Part shown: one piece after another, positions 23,429 to 58,212 of the stretch
Layout of the letters: every line of letters begins with the position of its first letter
Position numbering within the stretch: position 1 is the first letter of the stretch
Source of the DNA: Muriicola soli
GTDB taxonomy: Bacteria; Bacteroidota; Bacteroidia; Flavobacteriales; Flavobacteriaceae
Length of the DNA: 64,000 nucleotides
Direction of reading: 5' to 3'
Assembly: GCF_004139715.1 (NCBI RefSeq)
Contig: NZ_CP035544.1
Coordinates: forward strand, 372,001-436,000
Made by a program: the position numbers and the translations under genes
Notes under the pieces: model-generated
The model's database searches: none
What the model was told of the DNA's origin: nothing
The model's input: only the letters and a program-made list of their open reading frames with translations

Positions 23429-26400
23429 ATGAAGGTTACAGCAGGATTAAAGCAATTGAGTATTCCTGGGTATACCACCTTGAGTGGTGTTACTCAGGAT
23501 ATTCAGCTTTCCTATCAGTTATTTGGACAACCCTTGCATTCTGCACCCATCGTTTTGGTAAATCACGCCCTTACGGGAAATTCAAATGTCTGTGGACCTG
23601 AGGGATGGTGGACGGATTTGGTGGGCGAACAGAAATGTATCGATACGGATAAGTATACAGTGCTTTGCTTTAATATTCCCGGGAACGGTTATGATGGCTT
23701 TGTGATTGAGAATTACAGGGATTTTGTGGCCGGGGATATTGCCAGAATTTTCCTGAACGGACTCCAATTACTGGAGATCAAAAAAGTGTATGCGATCATA
23801 GGCGGATCTTTGGGAGGAGGCATAGCCTGGGAAATGGCAGCTCTAGATCCGGAAATAACATCGCATCTTATTCCTGTGGCATCAGATTGGAAGTCCACTG
23901 ATTGGCTGATAGCCAATTGTCAGATTCAGGAACAGTTCCTGGTCAATTCAAAAAATCCGGTACACGACGCCCGAATGCATGCCATGCTCTGCTACCGAAC
24001 ACCGGAATCGTTTAAAGAACGCTTTGCGAGGAGTACCAACGAAGAACTCAATGTTTTTAATGTGGAGAGCTGGTTGCTGCATCACGGAAGGAAATTACAG
24101 GAGCGTTTTCAATTATCGGCCTACAAACTTACCAATCAACTCTTAAAGACCATAGATATCACCCGCAGCGGTGATGAAGCCTTTAGGAACCTACGTCAAA
24201 GCAAGACGAATATCCATATCATCGGGGTTGATTCTGACCTGTTTTTTTCAGCCAATGAGGACAAGGATACTTACAAACAAATGGCCCAGGCCAGAAGCAA
24301 TGTAACCTACGGGGAAATAAAATCCCTCCACGGACATGATGCCTTTCTTATTGAATTTGAGCAAATGGTTCAACTCCTCGAGCCTATATTTAATCAGAAC
24401 CAGCGCTCCCGTCACTATAAGGTATTGAAATTTGGAGGAAATTCTCTGGCCAATGGCGAAGGGATAGAACGGGTTCTCGAAATTGTTGTATCTGAAGTTA
24501 ATGCGGGAGAAAAGATTGCGGTGGTGGTATCGGCCCGTGAATTGGCCACGGACCAATTGGTCAATATTCTGGAACTTGCCGCCAAAGGCGAGGATTACAA
24601 AAAGGAATTTGAAAAATTCGAAAGCTATCAAAGGCACAGTTTTAAAAACGTAGACTTATCAGATCAATTCAGGGAATTGGTGCAGCTACTGGAAGGAGTA
24701 ACCCTGCTAGGCGACTACAGTTCAAAAATCAAGGATCAGGTTTTGGCTATTGGAGAGCTCATTTCTACAAAGTTGATCGCAAAGTTGCTGATTGGAAAAG
24801 GGATAGAGGCGAAATGGATAGATTCCAGAAAGTTGATCATTACCGATGATAACTTCGGAAATGCGAATGTCTACGATGAGGTGTCGAGAGCTAGGGTTTT
24901 GGAGCTTTTCCAGTCCCTGAAGGCTGGCGTCACACCTGTAATACCAGGGTTTATCGGATCTACAAAAAAGGGAGAGACAACAACCCTGGGCAGGAACGGG
25001 AGTAATTATACCGCTGCACTTTTGGCAAATTTTCTCGATGCCGAAGAACTACATAATTATACCCATGTTGACGGGATCTATACCGCAGATCCCAAATGGG
25101 TACCCGAAGCCAGGCGGATTGATAAATTGTCCTATGCCGAGGCCAATGAACTGGCCAATTTTGGCGCAACTATTCTCCACGCAAAGACGATCATTCCCTT
25201 GCTTGAGAAAAACATTCCGCTCAGAATCCTAAACACCTTTAACCGGGAGAATAAAGGTACCTTGATAAGTGCGTATTCGGAAGGGGATGGTATTCGTTCG
25301 CTGTCTGTACTAGATCATGAGGCCTTGATCAATCTGGAGGGCAGGGGGTTGTTGGGTAAAGCAGGAGTAGATGCACGGATTTTTCGAGCCTTGGGAAGGA
25401 GTAATATCAGTGTTAGTATTATTTCCCAGGGTTCGTCCGAACGGGGGATAGGACTTTTAGTAAATGCCTCAGATGCGAATAATGCCCGCAGAGCTTTAAA
25501 AGAAGAGTTCGAGTCTGACTTTGAATCGAAAGATATTCACACGATTAGTATAATAGATGACGTTTCTGTGATTTCTATTATAGGACAGGACCTTAGTACT
25601 TTCCACAAACCGTACAATGCCTTGATTAAAAATCAAGTCATCCCGCTCTTGTTTAATAATACAGTAACTGGAAAGAACATTAGCCTTGTGGTAAAAAGAG
25701 AAGATCTACACAAGGCGCTGAACGTGATGCATGGGCAGATCTTTGGGATGAGTAAGCGAATTAATCTGGCTGTCTTTGGTCACGGTAATGTTGGAGCAAC
25801 ACTTCTTGATCAGATCCTCAACGCCAGTGCTTCTATTGAAAAAAGGAAAGGCATTCAACTAAGAGTCTTTGCCCTTGGTAACTCTAAGACCGTTTTACTC
25901 AACAAAGATGGTATCAGCAACGACTGGAAAAAGGACATAGATGAAGAAGGTAAATCGTATTCAATTTCTGAGGTTTTTGATTTTGCCAGAGAACATCATT
26001 TGGAAAACCTCATTGCTGTAGACAACACGGCAAGTGAAGATTTTGTAGCGCATTACTTTGATTTTGTCGAAAATGGTTTCGACCTGGTCTCATCCAACAA
26101 AATTGCGAATACCCTTGGATATGACTATTACCACCTCTTACGGGAAGAGTTGGGACGATTTCAGAAACAGTATTTGTACGAGACCAATGTAGGTGCGGGT
26201 CTTCCCCTTATTGATACCATTAAACTCCTACACTTATCGGGGGAAAATATTACCAGGATAAAAGGCGTCTTTTCCGGATCCTTGAGTTACATCTTTAATA
26301 CGTATTCAGAGAAAAATGTCCCATTTTCAGAAGTAGTCCTCGAAGCGATGAGCCTGGGTTACACTGAACCCGATCCGCGAGAGGACTTATCTGGTATGGA

Positions 26401-26830
26401 TGTGGGCCGAAAACTGCTGATCCTTGCACGTGAACTGCAGCTGCGTAATGAGATTAAAGACGTAAATGTGGAAAATCTGATTCCGGAAGAATTACAAAGC
26501 TTGAGCGAGGAGGAATTTGCAACCCAAATTGCAAAATTGAATCCGCTGATGGAAAAGAAAAAGAAGGATTTGGGACAAGGACAGGTTCTGCGCTATGTGG
26601 GAGATCTTTATGGAGATTTGCAGAGAGATAAAGGGATTCTTGAAGTGAAATTAATTTCGGTCTCTGAAGAGAGCAGCCTGGGGCAGGTAAAGGGTTCAGA
26701 TTCCATCATTGAAATCTATACAGAGTCCTATGGAAAACACCCATTGGTAATACAGGGCGCAGGAGCAGGAGCCGCAGTAACCGCGAGGGGGGTATTGGGA
26801 GATATTCTCAGGATCGCGGAAAAAATATAA
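23429..26830 (+). CDS. Fused homoserine O-acetyltransferase-like / aspartokinase / homoserine dehydrogenase
   Basis: 1133-residue fusion. Residues 1-328 are a MetX-type alpha/beta hydrolase: nucleophile Ser127 in GGSLGGG, Asp270 in VDSDLFF and His303 in HGHDAFL form the expected triad. Residues ~330-775 are an aspartokinase (KFGGNSLANGEG, GSTKKGETTTLGRNGSNYTAALLAN) with two ACT-type regulatory repeats. Residues ~777-1133 are homoserine dehydrogenase (AVFGHGNVGATLLDQIL; TNVGAGLPLIDTI; VQGAGAGAAVTARGVLGDIL-type end). The chain thus catalyses the first and third steps from aspartate to homoserine and the activation of homoserine for MetY/MetZ. No in-frame Met lies at the MetX/kinase junction, so the fusion does not look artificial. 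Located between metY and metZ, under the same riboswitch. Confidence 0.93.
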   Translation: MKVTAGLKQLSIPGYTTLSGVTQDIQLSYQLFGQPLHSAPIVLVNHALTGNSNVCGPEGWWTDLVGEQKCIDTDKYTVLCFNIPGNGYDGFVIENYRDFVAGDIARIFLNGLQLLEIKKVYAIIGGSLGGGIAWEMAALDPEITSHLIPVASDWKSTDWLIANCQIQEQFLVNSKNPVHDARMHAMLCYRTPESFKERFARSTNEELNVFNVESWLLHHGRKLQERFQLSAYKLTNQLLKTIDITRSGDEAFRNLRQSKTNIHIIGVDSDLFFSANEDKDTYKQMAQARSNVTYGEIKSLHGHDAFLIEFEQMVQLLEPIFNQNQRSRHYKVLKFGGNSLANGEGIERVLEIVVSEVNAGEKIAVVVSARELATDQLVNILELAAKGEDYKKEFEKFESYQRHSFKNVDLSDQFRELVQLLEGVTLLGDYSSKIKDQVLAIGELISTKLIAKLLIGKGIEAKWIDSRKLIITDDNFGNANVYDEVSRARVLELFQSLKAGVTPVIPGFIGSTKKGETTTLGRNGSNYTAALLANFLDAEELHNYTHVDGIYTADPKWVPEARRIDKLSYAEANELANFGATILHAKTIIPLLEKNIPLRILNTFNRENKGTLISAYSEGDGIRSLSVLDHEALINLEGRGLLGKAGVDARIFRALGRSNISVSIISQGSSERGIGLLVNASDANNARRALKEEFESDFESKDIHTISIIDDVSVISIIGQDLSTFHKPYNALIKNQVIPLLFNNTVTGKNISLVVKREDLHKALNVMHGQIFGMSKRINLAVFGHGNVGATLLDQILNASASIEKRKGIQLRVFALGNSKTVLLNKDGISNDWKKDIDEEGKSYSISEVFDFAREHHLENLIAVDNTASEDFVAHYFDFVENGFDLVSSNKIANTLGYDYYHLLREELGRFQKQYLYETNVGAGLPLIDTIKLLHLSGENITRIKGVFSGSLSYIFNTYSEKNVPFSEVVLEAMSLGYTEPDPREDLSGMDVGRKLLILARELQLRNEIKDVNVENLIPEELQSLSEEEFATQIAKLNPLMEKKKKDLGQGQVLRYVGDLYGDLQRDKGILEVKLISVSEESSLGQVKGSDSIIEIYTESYGKHPLVIQGAGAGAAVTARGVLGDILRIAEKI

Positions 26831-52986: not shown

Positions 52987-53883
52987 TCAGGCCCTGGTGA
53001 GTTCTGTAAACAGGCTTTCCAGGTTTTTATTCTTCCGGCTCAATTGAAGTGTTTTCAGCTTGTTGTCATGGGCGAAGTCGAAAACCACCGCTCTCATATC
53101 TTTTTCATGCTTAAAGGTGATCTCATAGACAAATCCAACGGTGTTTTTTACATGGGTAACATGGGGAAGTTTTTTTAAAAAAGCTTCTTCCACCCTGTAA
53201 TCAAATTCCACTTCAATGATCTGTTCGGTACCTGCCCGTAGTGCCGAGAGTTTCTGATCGGCTACAAGAACTCCTTTATTTATGATCAGCACGCGGTCGC
53301 ACACCGCTTCCACTTCTTTCATGATATGAGTGGAAAGGAATACGGTTCTTTCTTTGCCTAGTTCCCTGATGAGTTTTCGTATTTCGAGGAGTTGGTTGGG
53401 GTCTAATCCGGTAGTGGGCTCATCCAGGATAAGTACCTCGGGTTGGTGAACCAAAGCTGCAGCAAGTCCTACGCGTTGCCTGTAGCCTTTGGATAGCTGT
53501 GAAATCTTTTTGTGGGCCTCTTTTTCCAGGCCCACCTGGGTGATTACGGAGTTTACGGAATCCTTGGAAAATGACTGTAATTCTGCTATAAAATTCAGGT
53601 ATTCCCTTACGTACATTTCCAGGTAGAGGGGGTTGTTTTCGGGTAGATAACCAATACAGCGCTGTACTTTCCTAGCTTCGGAATTAACATTATGTTCGTT
53701 GACCCATGCTTCTCCCTTATCGGCATTGAGATAAGTAGTGAGAATCTTCATCATTGTAGACTTTCCTGCACCATTAGGGCCGAGGAAACCAACAATCTCC
53801 CCTTTATTAACACTGAAGGAGATATTATCTAAGGCAAGATGCCCGCTGTATGCTTTACTGAGGTTTTCGACGCGAATCGACAT
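52987..53883 (-). CDS. gldA: Gliding motility ABC transporter ATP-binding protein
   Basis: ATPase of the GldAFG transporter required for gliding in flavobacteria. 298 residues. Walker A GPNGAGKST (residues 35-43), signature LSKGYRQRVGLAAAL, Walker B VLILDEPTTGLDPNQL and the switch histidine in FLSTHIMKEVE. The GldF and GldG membrane components are not in the window. The C-terminal RKNKNLESLFTELTRA end is typical of GldA. Identification rests on overall likeness, not on an alignment. Confidence 0.88.
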   Translation of the reverse strand: MSIRVENLSKAYSGHLALDNISFSVNKGEIVGFLGPNGAGKSTMMKILTTYLNADKGEAWVNEHNVNSEARKVQRCIGYLPENNPLYLEMYVREYLNFIAELQSFSKDSVNSVITQVGLEKEAHKKISQLSKGYRQRVGLAAALVHQPEVLILDEPTTGLDPNQLLEIRKLIRELGKERTVFLSTHIMKEVEAVCDRVLIINKGVLVADQKLSALRAGTEQIIEVEFDYRVEEAFLKKLPHVTHVKNTVGFVYEITFKHEKDMRAVVFDFAHDNKLKTLQLSRKNKNLESLFTELTRA

Positions 53884-54150
53884 AAATAGCCCTTTTAAGG
53901 CATAAAAGTAAGGAATGTCTCTAAAAATTGAGCGGCCTTAGTAGTCCTAAATTCAACAAATTATTGCCTGGGTAACTTTTTAGATGAAGCCGATTTGTGG
54001 AGAAGGATTAGAGAATTCTCAGAATATGATGAGCTTTGAAAAATAATTCGCAGTTTTAAAACGAATATTGCAGACATCAAAAAAAATAAACACTAAAGGG
54101 TCTATTTTTCATTTTAATAATTACCTTAGCCTCAGTTTTATAAGAAAATC

Positions 54151-54219
54151 ATGCATAACAACTTCTGGAACGGTTTCTATTTTTACTTCTTTTTTCAAAG
54201 AGGCAAGGGACTGTTGTAG
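54151..54219 (+). CDS. Putative pheA leader peptide
   Basis: A 22-codon frame, ATG to TAG: MHNNFWNGFYFYFFFQRGKGLL. Residues 5-15 contain nine aromatic residues (six Phe, two Tyr, one Trp). It lies just upstream of pheA and is followed by a hairpin with nine T, the expected arrangement of a ribosome-mediated attenuator. It is unlikely to have an independent cellular job; its translation speed senses charged Phe-tRNA. A 7-of-8 promoter match (TATTTTTC, 54103) is 48 bases upstream. Confidence 0.88.
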   Translation: MHNNFWNGFYFYFFFQRGKGLL

Positions 54220-54273
54220 ATTAGTGTTAAACCATATAAAAGCAAGTCCCGTTAAAACCGGGGCTTTTTTTTT
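54207..54273 (+). terminator. Attenuator: antiterminator arm and terminator before pheA
   Basis: AAGTCCCG (54244-54251) and CGGGGCTT (54259-54266) form an 8-bp hairpin followed by nine T (54265-54273). GGGACT (54207-54212), at codons 19-21 of the leader peptide, is the exact complement of AGTCCC in the left arm and could form the antiterminator. A ribosome that finishes the leader would cover GGGACT and let the terminator form; one stalled on the Phe codons would not. Confidence 0.85.
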
Positions 54274-54283
54274 GAACAAAAAG

Positions 54284-55111
54284 GTGAGAAAACGAATTGC
54301 AATTCAGGGTATCAAGGGCTCAAACCACCATCAGGTGGCCAGGGAATACTTTGGTGACGAAATTGAACTTGTTGAGTGTCTCTCTTTCCATAGCCTGGTA
54401 GACCAGCTCCTGGAAGGAAAGGCAGACAAGGGGGTGATGGCTATAGAGAATTCCATAGCAGGTTCAATTATTCCAAATTACGCTTTAGTGTATGAAAATA
54501 ATTTGCACATTATCGGGGAGCATTACCTCAATATCCATCACCATCTGATGGGACTCAGAGGACAGACCATTGCCGATATTCGGGAAGTGAGATCGCACCC
54601 CATGGCACTCTTGCAGTGCAGGGAATACCTGAAAACACAATCCCATATTAAAATGGTAGAAGATGTAGATACTGCCGAGACAGCTTTCCGCATACGGGAA
54701 GAAAAATTGTCCGGAATTGCTGCAATTGCTCCGGAAATGGCTGCTGAAATGTACGATCTGGAAATTATTTCCCCTGAAATCCAGACCATAAAAAACAATG
54801 CAACCCGATTTATCATCGTAAAAACGGTGAATAAGGAATTGCCAAAAGAAGAAATCAATAAGGCGTCATTGCGGTTTATTACAGACCACAAAAGGGGTAG
54901 CCTTGCAACGGTTCTCAACGTGATGAGCGATTGTAATTTAAACCTTACCAAGATCCAGAGTTTACCTATAATTGAAACGCCCTGGAAATACGCCTTTTTC
55001 GTTGATGTCACTTTTGACGATTACAACCACTTCGCAAAATCGAAGTCGCTTTTACAAATCATGTCCGAAGATTTCAAGGTGTTGGGCGAATATAAAAACA
55101 CACGGATATGA
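54284..55111 (+). CDS. pheA: Prephenate dehydratase
   Basis: Converts prephenate to phenylpyruvate for Phe synthesis. 275 residues from GTG 54284 (VRKRIAIQGIKGSNHHQVA), the family start; frames extending upstream run through the attenuator. Features: GVMAIENSIAGSIIPNYALV, NATRFIIVKT, and a C-terminal ACT regulatory domain (KRGSLATVLNVMSDCNLNLTKIQSLPI with the Phe-binding ESRP-like loop as QSLPI). No chorismate mutase is fused; that is in AroG here. Stop overlaps the next start by four bases. Confidence 0.93.
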   Translation: MRKRIAIQGIKGSNHHQVAREYFGDEIELVECLSFHSLVDQLLEGKADKGVMAIENSIAGSIIPNYALVYENNLHIIGEHYLNIHHHLMGLRGQTIADIREVRSHPMALLQCREYLKTQSHIKMVEDVDTAETAFRIREEKLSGIAAIAPEMAAEMYDLEIISPEIQTIKNNATRFIIVKTVNKELPKEEINKASLRFITDHKRGSLATVLNVMSDCNLNLTKIQSLPIIETPWKYAFFVDVTFDDYNHFAKSKSLLQIMSEDFKVLGEYKNTRI

Positions 55112-56259
55112 TCACTACGGCAGACAGACTCAAGTCGGTTGAAGAATATTACTTCTCAAGAAAACTTAAAGAAGTGCGTGGCCTGATGGCTGAAGGAAGA
55201 CCTATTATTAATATGGGTATAGGCAGTCCTGATCTTTCTCCTTCTCCGGAGGTTCTCAGCACCTTAAAGGAAGCGATTTCTGAAAACGGAGCGCATCAGT
55301 ATCAGAGTTATCAGGGCTTACCTGAGCTAAGACAGGCCATTTCTGATTTCTATTTGGAGAAATTTGCGGTTGAGGCCGATCCGGGCACGGAAATACTGCC
55401 ATTAATGGGGTCTAAGGAAGGAATCATGCATATAAGTATGGCATTCCTCAATCCGGGAGACGAAGTATTGATCCCGGATCCGGGATATCCTACATATAGG
55501 GCCGTAACCCAACTCATCGGAGCGACTCCCAGAACCTATTCCTTGAGTGAAGAAAAACAATGGTTTCCCGACTTGAAAAAGCTGGCAAGTGAAGATCTGA
55601 GCAGGGTTAAGCTGATGTGGGTAAGTTACCCGCACATGCCTACGGGTGCTACCGTAAACGAAAAACAATGGGGCGAATTAGTCGATTTTGCCAAAACACA
55701 TCAAATACTGATGGTCAATGACAACCCCTATAGTTTCGTGCTGGGAACAAATCCTATGAGCATACTTCAGATTCCGGGTGCCAGGGAAGTTGCTCTGGAA
55801 CTTAACTCTCTGAGTAAAACATTTAATATGGCGGGATGGCGCGTAGGGATGGTTCTGGGAAAGGCCGATCACATTAATGCCATCCTAAAGGTAAAGAGCA
55901 ATATGGATTCAGGGATGTTTTACGGCATTCAGAAAGGAGCGATAGCAGCATTAAAAAGCGGTAGAAGCTGGTTTGAAGCGCTTGACGAGGTTTACCAGGC
56001 GAGAAGAAAGCACATGTTTGAGCTGGCAACACTACTGAATTGCACCTTCGATCATAAGGCAGTCGGGATGTTTGTATGGGCCAAGTTGCCTGAAGGAGCA
56101 GCTTCTTCTGAAGAGTTTATAGACCGCATTCTCTATGAGAAAGATATTTTTATTGCTCCCGGAACTATTTTTGGGAGTAAAGGTGAAGGGTATATTCGAT
56201 TTTCCCTCTGCGTTAAATCAGAAAAAATCAAAGAGGCCATAGCTCGATTTAAAAATTAG
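55108..56259 (+). CDS. Class I aminotransferase of the aromatic operon
   Basis: 383-residue PLP enzyme, presumably transaminating phenylpyruvate and 4-hydroxyphenylpyruvate (inferred from context) or aspartate. Typical: GIGSPDLSPSPEVLSTLKEA, LLPMGSKEGIMHISMAFL-like glycine loop, VNDNPYSFVLG, and PLP lysine in ELNSLSKTFNMAGWRVGMV. Between pheA and tyrA with 4-base overlap and 2-base gap. Confidence 0.9.
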   Translation: MITTADRLKSVEEYYFSRKLKEVRGLMAEGRPIINMGIGSPDLSPSPEVLSTLKEAISENGAHQYQSYQGLPELRQAISDFYLEKFAVEADPGTEILPLMGSKEGIMHISMAFLNPGDEVLIPDPGYPTYRAVTQLIGATPRTYSLSEEKQWFPDLKKLASEDLSRVKLMWVSYPHMPTGATVNEKQWGELVDFAKTHQILMVNDNPYSFVLGTNPMSILQIPGAREVALELNSLSKTFNMAGWRVGMVLGKADHINAILKVKSNMDSGMFYGIQKGAIAALKSGRSWFEALDEVYQARRKHMFELATLLNCTFDHKAVGMFVWAKLPEGAASSEEFIDRILYEKDIFIAPGTIFGSKGEGYIRFSLCVKSEKIKEAIARFKN

Positions 56260-56261
56260 AA

Positions 56262-57122
56262 ATGAAAATAGGAATTATAGGAATTGGCTTAATAGGAGGT
56301 TCGATGTCAAAGGACCTGAAAAAGATCCTGCCCGATGCTGAGATTTTTGGTTTTGACCATAATCCGGAACATCTCAAGACGGCCCTGGAACTCAACCTTA
56401 TTGATCATGTCGGGGATGATTCTATGATAGAGGAGGCAGATATTATATTTCTGGCAATTCCTGTTGATGCGGCAGTAAATGCCCTGCCAGACCTTCTCGG
56501 GAAAGTTAAAGATGACGGGCTTATTATCGATGCGGGTTCAACAAAATCACTGATATGTTCATCAGTGAGCGGACATGCGAAGAGAAGAAATTTCCTGGCT
56601 TGTCACCCTATTGCAGGTACTGAATTCTCGGGGCCTACAGCAGCTATAGATGGTCTATACGACGGCAAGACCAACATCATCTGTGAAGTTGAAAAGACGG
56701 CTTTTAAATTACAGGAAAAAGCTTTGGATCTCTTCGCGAAAATGGGGATGAGGATCAGGTATATGAATCCTGAAGCTCACGATAAGCATATTGCCTACGT
56801 AAGTCACCTCTCGCACATCAGTTCATTTATGCTGGGTAAAACCGTAATAGAAAAAGAAAAGAACGAAAGGGACATCTTTGACATGGCAGGAAGTGGATTT
56901 GAAAGCACCGTTAGACTGGCAAAAAGTTCGCCTGATATGTGGACTCCTATTTTTGAGCAGAATAAACTTAATGTGATTGAAACCCTGGAAGAATACATAC
57001 AGAACCTCCAGGCTTTTAAGGACAAATTGCTGAACAATGATATGGAAGGAATCTATCAGGAGATGGAGGATACCAATAAAATAAAAGAGATATTAAAAGG
57101 AATACCACTGAATAAAATTTAA
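56262..57122 (+). CDS. tyrA: Prephenate dehydrogenase
   Basis: Makes 4-hydroxyphenylpyruvate for Tyr. 286 residues. NAD-binding GIIGIGLIGGSMSKDLKK, IPVDAAVNALPDLL, HPIAGTEFSGPTAAIDGLYDG, and the catalytic HDKHIAYVSHLSHISSFML. Has no C-terminal ACT domain. Third gene of the aromatic operon. Confidence 0.93.
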   Translation: MKIGIIGIGLIGGSMSKDLKKILPDAEIFGFDHNPEHLKTALELNLIDHVGDDSMIEEADIIFLAIPVDAAVNALPDLLGKVKDDGLIIDAGSTKSLICSSVSGHAKRRNFLACHPIAGTEFSGPTAAIDGLYDGKTNIICEVEKTAFKLQEKALDLFAKMGMRIRYMNPEAHDKHIAYVSHLSHISSFMLGKTVIEKEKNERDIFDMAGSGFESTVRLAKSSPDMWTPIFEQNKLNVIETLEEYIQNLQAFKDKLLNNDMEGIYQEMEDTNKIKEILKGIPLNKI

Positions 57123-57129
57123 GGATAAT

Positions 57130-58212
57130 ATGGAGAATTCAAAAAAATTGAGAGGCTGGTTAGACGAAATGGCACTCCCTCACCCTTTAGTGATAGCGGG
57201 CCCATGTAGTGCCGAAACCGAGAAGCAGGTCTTGCAAATTGCGCATGACCTCAAGGATACAGATGTCAATTTTTACCGGGCAGGGATATGGAAACCGCGG
57301 ACACGGCCCGGAAACTTTGAAGGAGTAGGTGCTATTGGTCTTAGGTGGCTACAGCAAGTTAAAAAGGAAACCGGTTTAAAAACTGCAACCGAAGTAGCCA
57401 ACAGAACACATGTGGAACTTGCCCTGGAACACGATGTAGACCTTTTGTGGATTGGAGCCAGATCAACGGTGAGTCCGTTTATCGTGCAGGAAATTGCAGA
57501 TGCGCTTAAAGGAACGGATAAGATTGTGCTGGTTAAGAATCCGGTTAATCCGGACCTTTCGCTCTGGCTTGGAGCTGTGGAGCGTCTTCATTCGGCAGAT
57601 ATCGAGAAGTTGGGCGTTATCCACAGAGGATTTTCAACCTATGAAAAAACAAAGTACAGAAATATTCCTGAGTGGCAGTTGGCTATTGAGTTACAGACCA
57701 GATTCCCTGACCTGCCACTGATCAACGACCCCTCACATATCACGGGTAAAAGAGACATGATTTTTGATGTCTCCCAAACGGCTCTGGATCTCAATTTTGA
57801 TGGACTGATGATCGAGACGCACTGCGACCCTGAAAAAGCATGGAGCGACGCGGCACAGCAAGTTACCCCTAAAAGACTCGTACAAATCATGGAAGACCTG
57901 AAGATCAGAAAAGAAACCGACGAAGAAGCGGAATACAAAAACGACCTGAACAATTTAAGGGCACAGATCGATATTATTGATAACCAGCTCATAGATATTC
58001 TTGGAAAGAGAATGCAGGTTTCGGACGGAATCGGGTTATTAAAAAAACAACGCAATGTAGCCGTTCTCCAAACCAACCGATGGAACGCCATTTTAGGTAA
58101 AATGATCCTGGAAGGTGAAGCAAAAGGATTGAGCGAGGAATTCGTCCTCAAAATGTTTAAAGCTATTCACCAGGAGTCGATTAATCATCAGGAAAAGATC
58201 ATTAATTCGTAA
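57130..58212 (+). CDS. DAHP synthase fused to chorismate mutase
   Basis: 360 residues. N-terminal 3-deoxy-7-phosphoheptulonate synthase (residues ~1-260): IAGPCSAETEKQV, WKPRTRPGNFEGVGA, NRTHVELALEHDVDLLWIGAR, LINDPSHITGKRD. C-terminal AroQ chorismate mutase (residues ~275-360): LRAQIDIIDNQLIDILGKRM, SDGIGLLKKQRNVAVLQTNRWN. So one chain does the first shikimate step and the branch-point step, which suits feedback by prephenate or chorismate. Last gene of the operon; the leader upstream could control all four. Confidence 0.93.
   Translation: MENSKKLRGWLDEMALPHPLVIAGPCSAETEKQVLQIAHDLKDTDVNFYRAGIWKPRTRPGNFEGVGAIGLRWLQQVKKETGLKTATEVANRTHVELALEHDVDLLWIGARSTVSPFIVQEIADALKGTDKIVLVKNPVNPDLSLWLGAVERLHSADIEKLGVIHRGFSTYEKTKYRNIPEWQLAIELQTRFPDLPLINDPSHITGKRDMIFDVSQTALDLNFDGLMIETHCDPEKAWSDAAQQVTPKRLVQIMEDLKIRKETDEEAEYKNDLNNLRAQIDIIDNQLIDILGKRMQVSDGIGLLKKQRNVAVLQTNRWNAILGKMILEGEAKGLSEEFVLKMFKAIHQESINHQEKIINS

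Follow-up and report, generated by a model that had tools for sequence, protein, structure and literature searches.

A probable ribosome-mediated attenuator with a Phe- and Tyr-rich leader peptide before the pheA operon of Muriicola soli and many of its relatives

Results and Discussion

Genes and Signals at the Locus

The window analyzed here, a stretch of 64,000 nucleotides from Muriicola soli, carries a run of four genes encoding prephenate dehydratase, an aminotransferase, prephenate dehydrogenase, and a DAHP synthase with a C-terminal chorismate mutase, preceded by the elements listed in Table 1. An earlier note on this DNA had described the run as a four-gene operon that also makes DAHP and Tyr, and the gene families are borne out by Pfam, with which NCBIfam agrees for the four genes, mostly below its curated cut-offs. 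All four genes lie within the fetched stretch at 110 of 140 loci, some of the fetched stretches being incomplete.

Table 1. Features of the attenuator region and the downstream operon, in window coordinates.
Feature	Position	Strand	Remarks
Promoter-like −7 element	54122..54129	+	TACCTTAG
Leader peptide ORF	54151..54219	+	22 codons, MHNNFWNGFYFYFFFQRGKGLL and stop; 9 aromatics among residues 5–15; kept in 79/79 usable close loci
Region 1	54169..54177	+	AACGGTTTC, codons N7 G8 F9; pairs with region 2 in the free-RNA fold
Inner hairpin P1	54186..54203	+	54186–54192 with 54197–54203, inside the 1:2 stem
Region 2	54207..54215	+	GGGACTGTT, codons 19–22; partner is region 1 or region 3
Predicted intrinsic terminator, region 3 arm	54244..54251	+	AAGTCCCG; doubles as antiterminator arm
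Region 4 and T run	54259..54273	+	CGGGGCTT at 54259–54266, T run 54265–54273; 3:4 helix 100% paired (62 sequences)
pheA, prephenate dehydratase	54284..55111	+	Pfam PDT; start GTG 54284 is our reading, in-frame TTG at 54272
Class I/II aminotransferase, second gene	55108..56259	+	Pfam Aminotran_1_2
tyrA, prephenate dehydrogenase	56262..57122	+	NCBIfam NF006307 over cut-off; Pfam PDH_N, PDH_C
DAHP synthase with C-terminal chorismate mutase (here called aroF)	57130..58212	+	Pfam DAHP_synth_1, CM_2

What the note had read directly before pheA is exact in the window sequence: a 22-codon leader with nine aromatics in residues 5–15, an 8-bp hairpin plus nine T at 54244–54273, and a core, GGGACT (54207–54212), that is the perfect complement of AGTCCC (54245–54250). 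The leader stop codon lies at 54217. The −7 consensus of Bacteroidetes promoters is TAnnTTTG; TAnnTTAG occurs within 45 nt 5′ of the leader start at 72 of 80 close loci, compared with 36 of 4000 random 45-nt windows. Two traits of the attenuator class are present at the locus: a short leader ORF with a run of end-product codons, as judged by sequence, conservation, and chance controls, and a predicted intrinsic terminator between the leader and the first gene, as judged by sequence and covariation.

Conservation and Distribution of the Leader

The close set consisted of the best 80 of 419 confirmed loci from a PheA search of genome contigs; one of them (L081) starts at the PheA match and has no upstream DNA, which leaves 79 usable loci. 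The earlier note had named a missing leader in close relatives as evidence against its reading: A leader of 20–23 residues followed by a terminator was found at all 79, its commonest form being xxxxYFWNGFYFYFFFKRGTGLL. To gauge chance, the densest 11-residue segment of the short upstream ORFs had to contain at least seven aromatics. All 80 close loci, counting the window, reached this threshold; among controls made from these loci it was reached by 1 of 80 sequences when reverse-complemented, by 1 of 400 when dinucleotide-shuffled, and by 3 of 363 stretches taken at random. At the 60 further loci 45 reached it, as did none of the 60 reverse complements, 4 of 300 shuffled sequences, and 1 of 257 random stretches.

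These 60 loci, mostly top-scoring, came from a draw of 247 genomes of the phylum, 215 of them with a PheA match. They cover 21 of the 26 matching genomes from the same family, 25 of the 27 from the same class, and 14 of the 158 at the level of the phylum. Three same-order genomes and one same-class genome were added later; same-class G080 and same-family G021, G025, G142, G174, and G206 were left out of the fetched set. The leader was present at 21 of 21 same-family loci beyond the close set (two of them probably the same records as L032 and L044) and at 25 of 26 same-class loci, 22 times before pheA and three times before the DAHP synthase gene, L153 being the exception. Two of the same-class leaders before pheA (L121 and L123) score only six aromatics. 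No leader was found at the three same-order loci with divergent PheA (0/3); the more divergent PheA genes, L132–L141 and L150–L153, lack it throughout. Four same-class genomes have no prephenate dehydratase match at all. The suggestion that such an attenuator appears uncommon finds no support in the family and class counts, though the same-order loci lack the leader, and the element is partly in print (PMC9723704).

Among the 14 same-phylum loci, a small sample biased towards good PheA matches, four have the leader (L126, L129, L130, and L131): They lie outside the class and combine the aromatic leader with a class-like PheA and a DAHP synthase in the same stretch. DAHP synthase is found in the stretch at one of the ten loci that lack the leader. 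A horizontal transfer of operon and attenuator together is possible for these four.

The position of the leader shifts where the gene order does. At L103–L105 no leader stands directly before pheA because a long gene, putatively aroA, abuts it; the order is DAHP synthase gene, two long ORFs, pheA, and in all three cases the leader MLITAAIYFTFFYFYFRSQNRIGAVYCPVKN or a close variant, together with a terminator, directly precedes the DAHP synthase gene, with 2:3 duplexes of −20.4 to −21.1 kcal/mol. Judged by sequence, the leader goes with the start of the gene run, whichever gene stands first. Trp-rich small frames before pheA at L103–L105 were considered as Trp leaders and rejected, as they lie inside the long preceding gene. 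At L142 another DAHP synthase gene lies farther upstream.

Alternative Helices

Mutually exclusive folds, as the note had proposed them, are supported by covariation of both helices, 2:3 and 3:4; a fourth region, the 1:2 pairing, and the inner hairpin, all of them predicted, had escaped it. Covariation was tested on five measures against 500 shuffles in a hand-thinned alignment (A1) that retains 62 of the 80 close sequences. For helix 2:3, 96.3% of cells are paired and four pairs are changed on both sides, with 0 of 500 shuffles reaching the observed value on four measures and 6 of 500 on the fifth; for helix 3:4, pairing is complete (100%) and again four pairs are changed on both sides (0/500 on four measures, 12/500 on the fifth). 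Over 127 leaders the best 2:3 duplex amounts to −9.2 kcal/mol or better, the leader of L115 having been set by hand. Regions 2 and 3 pair more stably with their own than with swapped partners, both at 43 distant loci (−14.69 vs −8.97 kcal/mol) and at 84 close loci (−14.00 vs −13.42 kcal/mol; 0 of 2000 permutations in either set), though at no more than 13 of the 43 distant loci and 4 of the 84 close ones does the own partner rank first among all partners. At L091, L093, L095, and L099 a stop codon lies before or at the start of region 2, and the region 2 RNA is still kept.

The pairing of 54169–54177 with 54207–54215 is predicted to act as a classical anti-antiterminator, for which the evidence is weaker. 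The free window RNA folds with the 1:2 pairing at −34.3 kcal/mol (z −2.77), and swapped partners weaken the pairing: The outcome was 0 of 1000 for either set when the test was confined to the ORF, and 0 of 1000 (distant) and 14 of 1000 (close) once the 5′ UTR was added. Covariation of 1:2 in the close set was not significant (best measure 74/500). Hairpin P1 within this stem is more stable than synonymous recodings, with a mean z of −1.68 in 74 close and −1.69 in 42 distant leaders. Codon choice for Phe hardly varies in its 5′ arm (TTC in 79/79, TTT in 77/80, TTT in 70/73), whereas Phe positions outside this arm mix TTT and TTC. Its covariation is weak (16, 190, 27, 205, and 13 of 500 on the five measures), and P1 is kept as a candidate because of the synonymous-codon test.

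Ribosome Position and Leader Geometry

Ribosome positions were modeled on the transcript before region 4 is made, with a footprint assumed to extend 18 nt upstream and 11 nt downstream of the first A-site base; the model was applied to 42 of 84 close and to 43 distant loci. In the window, the modeled probability of helix 2:3, P(2:3), is 0.92 while F15, the last Phe codon, occupies the A site, and drops to 0.00 once Q16 does, as it also is at the stop codon; P(1:2) in free RNA is 0.99. The third trait of the attenuator class, an antiterminator that is exclusive with the terminator, free under a stalled ribosome, and covered by a finishing one, is supported by the model, given the assumed footprint, together with the swapped-partner test and the covariation of 2:3. 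Without a ribosome the median P(1:2) is 0.32 at the 42 close and 0.06 at the 43 distant loci: The free RNA of many relatives is not predicted to favor 1:2, which makes this the least secure arm of the switch. For the full transcript at equilibrium with the ribosome at F15, the terminator is still predicted to fold, and antitermination would therefore rest on 2:3 forming first.

Codon placement in both sets follows the model in that the fraction of aromatic codons drops near zero where P(2:3) drops. A second, smaller group of aromatic codons follows region 2, with a fraction of 0.27 (close) and 0.24 (distant) at +9, and many close leaders have a final Phe codon after region 2, which counts against the attenuator reading. 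In some distant leaders a ribosome at the stop codon would lie past region 2; P(2:3) climbs back to 0.50–0.99 at A sites 24–30 nt beyond region 2 in the distant set (10, 4, and 2 cases). The last aromatic codon precedes region 2 by a median of 13 nt in both sets, with a standard deviation of 1.6 (close) and 3.2 (distant). In the distant set, the distance from region 2 to the stop codon varies with a standard deviation of 10, and some leaders end ahead of region 2. A spacing of 9–14 nt between the last aromatic codon and region 2 was observed in 77% of cases, as against 59% with swapped and 40% with shuffled arms; this clustering is partly due to the search itself.

Proposed Mechanism

We read the element as a ribosome-mediated transcription attenuator that senses the supply of charged aromatic tRNAs before the pheA/aminotransferase/tyrA/DAHP synthase–chorismate mutase operon, with a probability of about 0.9; the note's interpretation as a pheA attenuator is supported by the conservation of the leader (79/79) and by the covariation of 2:3 and 3:4. 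From these parts we infer ribosome stalling, termination, the starvation response, and which of Phe, Tyr, and Trp count. When Phe, and probably also Tyr, is plentiful, the ribosome would reach the stop codon and cover region 2, so that the 3:4 terminator could form and the operon would be off. When charged tRNA is short, the ribosome would stall on an aromatic codon, masking region 1 and the inner hairpin and leaving region 2 free: Helix 2:3 would then form before region 4 is made, and the operon would be transcribed. If translation does not occur, the prediction for this genome is that 1:2 forms and that the terminator wins. Very probably, the cell in this way would switch on its own Phe and Tyr production when these run short.

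Amino Acid Specificity

Phe and Tyr are present in 127 of 127 leaders, Trp in 73, and at least two Tyr in 126, which suggests dual sensing of Phe and Tyr. A bolder reading, to which we give somewhat less than even odds, is a single multivalent attenuator, old within the class, that would sum charged Phe, Tyr, and often Trp tRNA, set the DAHP synthase entry step as well as the Phe and Tyr branches, and follow the operon whichever gene leads it, including some genomes from other classes of the phylum. A Phe-only attenuator would use the same switch, with the Tyr and Trp codons being incidental and only Phe starvation counting. We regard it as a less probable yet serious possibility: In the window, FFF makes up the final three aromatic codons ahead of region 2, and Corynebacterium glutamicum AroR, with Phe-Tyr-Phe, is reported to answer to Phe limitation and not to Tyr (PMC11802643). 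It has to contend, however, with the near-universal pair of Tyr codons, with a Tyr share of leader residues of 12.7% (close) and 15.1% (distant) as opposed to 3.6% in long window frames, with the 14 of 43 distant leaders in which Tyr equals or exceeds Phe, and with modeled stalls at Y10 or Y12, which yield a P(2:3) of 0.96.

Very unlikely is an arrest by the nascent leader peptide itself, rather than by slow decoding, in answer to a metabolite. Some non-aromatic residues are indeed kept, for example N in 78 of 84 close leaders, seven positions before the end region of the FFF run (position −16 from the C terminus), but the codons of the kept residues belong to region 1, region 2, or P1, and RNA pairing therefore explains them; moreover, distant leaders have little in common beyond the aromatic run, and WN is replaced by WQ in L094 and L095, where region 2 differs yet still pairs. 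That the leader is a chance frame before an ordinary terminator, such as the end of an upstream transcript, is scarcely credible and already largely refuted. In its favor, AT-rich upstream DNA does give rise to such frames at a low rate (1 of 400 shuffles); conservation, shuffle controls, the swapped-partner test, covariation of 2:3 and 3:4, the placement at the head of the gene run, and a neighboring upstream ORF (52987–53883) on the strand opposite to the leader all stand against it.

Rfam Models and Other Loci of the Genome

At pheA, nothing in Rfam scored over threshold: Phe_leader, presumably RF01859, gave no match up to E 5 in window positions 53000–56000, Trp_leader (RF00513) reached 25.1 bits at 54177–54272, below its gathering score of 41 bits, and the pheA leader was not recovered with Bacteroid-trp (RF01692) at E up to 0.5 (L001) or 5 (window). 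Before trpE of the same genome (L146, minus strand, 2160–2044) lies a Trp leader, MKKITVNTWWWSNLRLMS, with a terminator, and this leader matches RF01692 with 70.7 bits, over the gathering score. Just upstream of hisG (L145, minus strand), a short frame, MKTNNTHHHFLSCPQAG, was read by eye, followed by a strong terminator-like hairpin; it is likely a His leader, was missed by the scan (at least four His in 12) because it has three His only, and had no Rfam match at E up to 0.5. The ilvD locus of this genome showed no Leu/Ile/Val-rich short frame at the threshold used. The window also holds a homoserine dehydrogenase domain (approximately 26204–26809) in an open frame of 1136 residues; the homoserine dehydrogenase loci L147 and L148 do not give a fair test for a Thr/Ile leader, as the long frame may begin beyond the DNA that was fetched and scanned.

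Comparison with Known Systems

Leader-peptide attenuation has been studied mostly outside the Bacteroidetes. An attenuation survey by Lopatovskaya (Mol Biol, 2010) may already contain Bacteroidetes cases. In the accessible literature, which included few subscription papers and no supplements, we found no account of the sequence of this leader, its four regions, or its spread.

The closest precedents share the principle and differ in design. The Escherichia coli pheA attenuator (pheL), controlled by Phe-charged tRNA, likewise places a Phe-rich leader and a terminator before a prephenate dehydratase gene; there, however, according to the part of PMC11802643 available, pheA is a fused chorismate mutase–dehydratase gene, whereas here a four-gene operon with DAHP synthase follows and the leader also contains Tyr codons. 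In C. glutamicum aroR-aroF (Neshat 2014, via the same part of PMC11802643), ribosome stalling raises transcription and an aromatic leader (Phe-Tyr-Phe) again precedes an operon containing DAHP synthase, but the organism belongs to another phylum, three aromatics are named as opposed to nine here, and the system is reported not to respond to Tyr. Bacteroid-trp (RF01692), listed in the available portion of PMC2864571, is a peptide-leader RNA of Bacteroidetes like the present one, yet has Trp codons, and its model does not match the pheA leader. The uORFC-13-1 motif, with 24 representatives in the accessible text of PMC8632094, has a proposed Phe-codon uORF and a terminator before a DAHP synthase gene, but, unlike here, only at least one Phe codon is given. 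More generally, the parts available of PMC7366714 and PMC4833913 treat, respectively, leader-like short ORFs in long 5′ UTRs of Bacteroides and leader genes statistically.

Nearest of all is a 2021 transcriptome study of Flavobacterium psychrophilum (PMC9723704), whose relevant section places a structured 5′ element, conserved in Flavobacteriaceae, at both pheA and hisG; a sentence of its own mentions clues that point to leader-peptide attenuation at amino acid operons. As here, the element stands before pheA, is conserved among Flavobacteriaceae genera, and has no Rfam match; for pheA, that section spells out neither a leader sequence nor regions or codons. Very probably the two are the same element.

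The kind of attenuation is already known from E. coli pheL, C. glutamicum aroR, and Bacteroid-trp. As far as our searches of the literature reach, the four-region anatomy, the spread, the Phe- and Tyr-rich specificity, and the placement of the leader at whichever gene heads the operon are new. The element becomes annotatable where Rfam, as searched, has no family. Most sampled genomes that have the operon share this single element, in which a clear ruler relates codons to helices, and together they form a natural series in which to ask which codons matter, how spacing sets the switch, and whether several amino acids are read at once.
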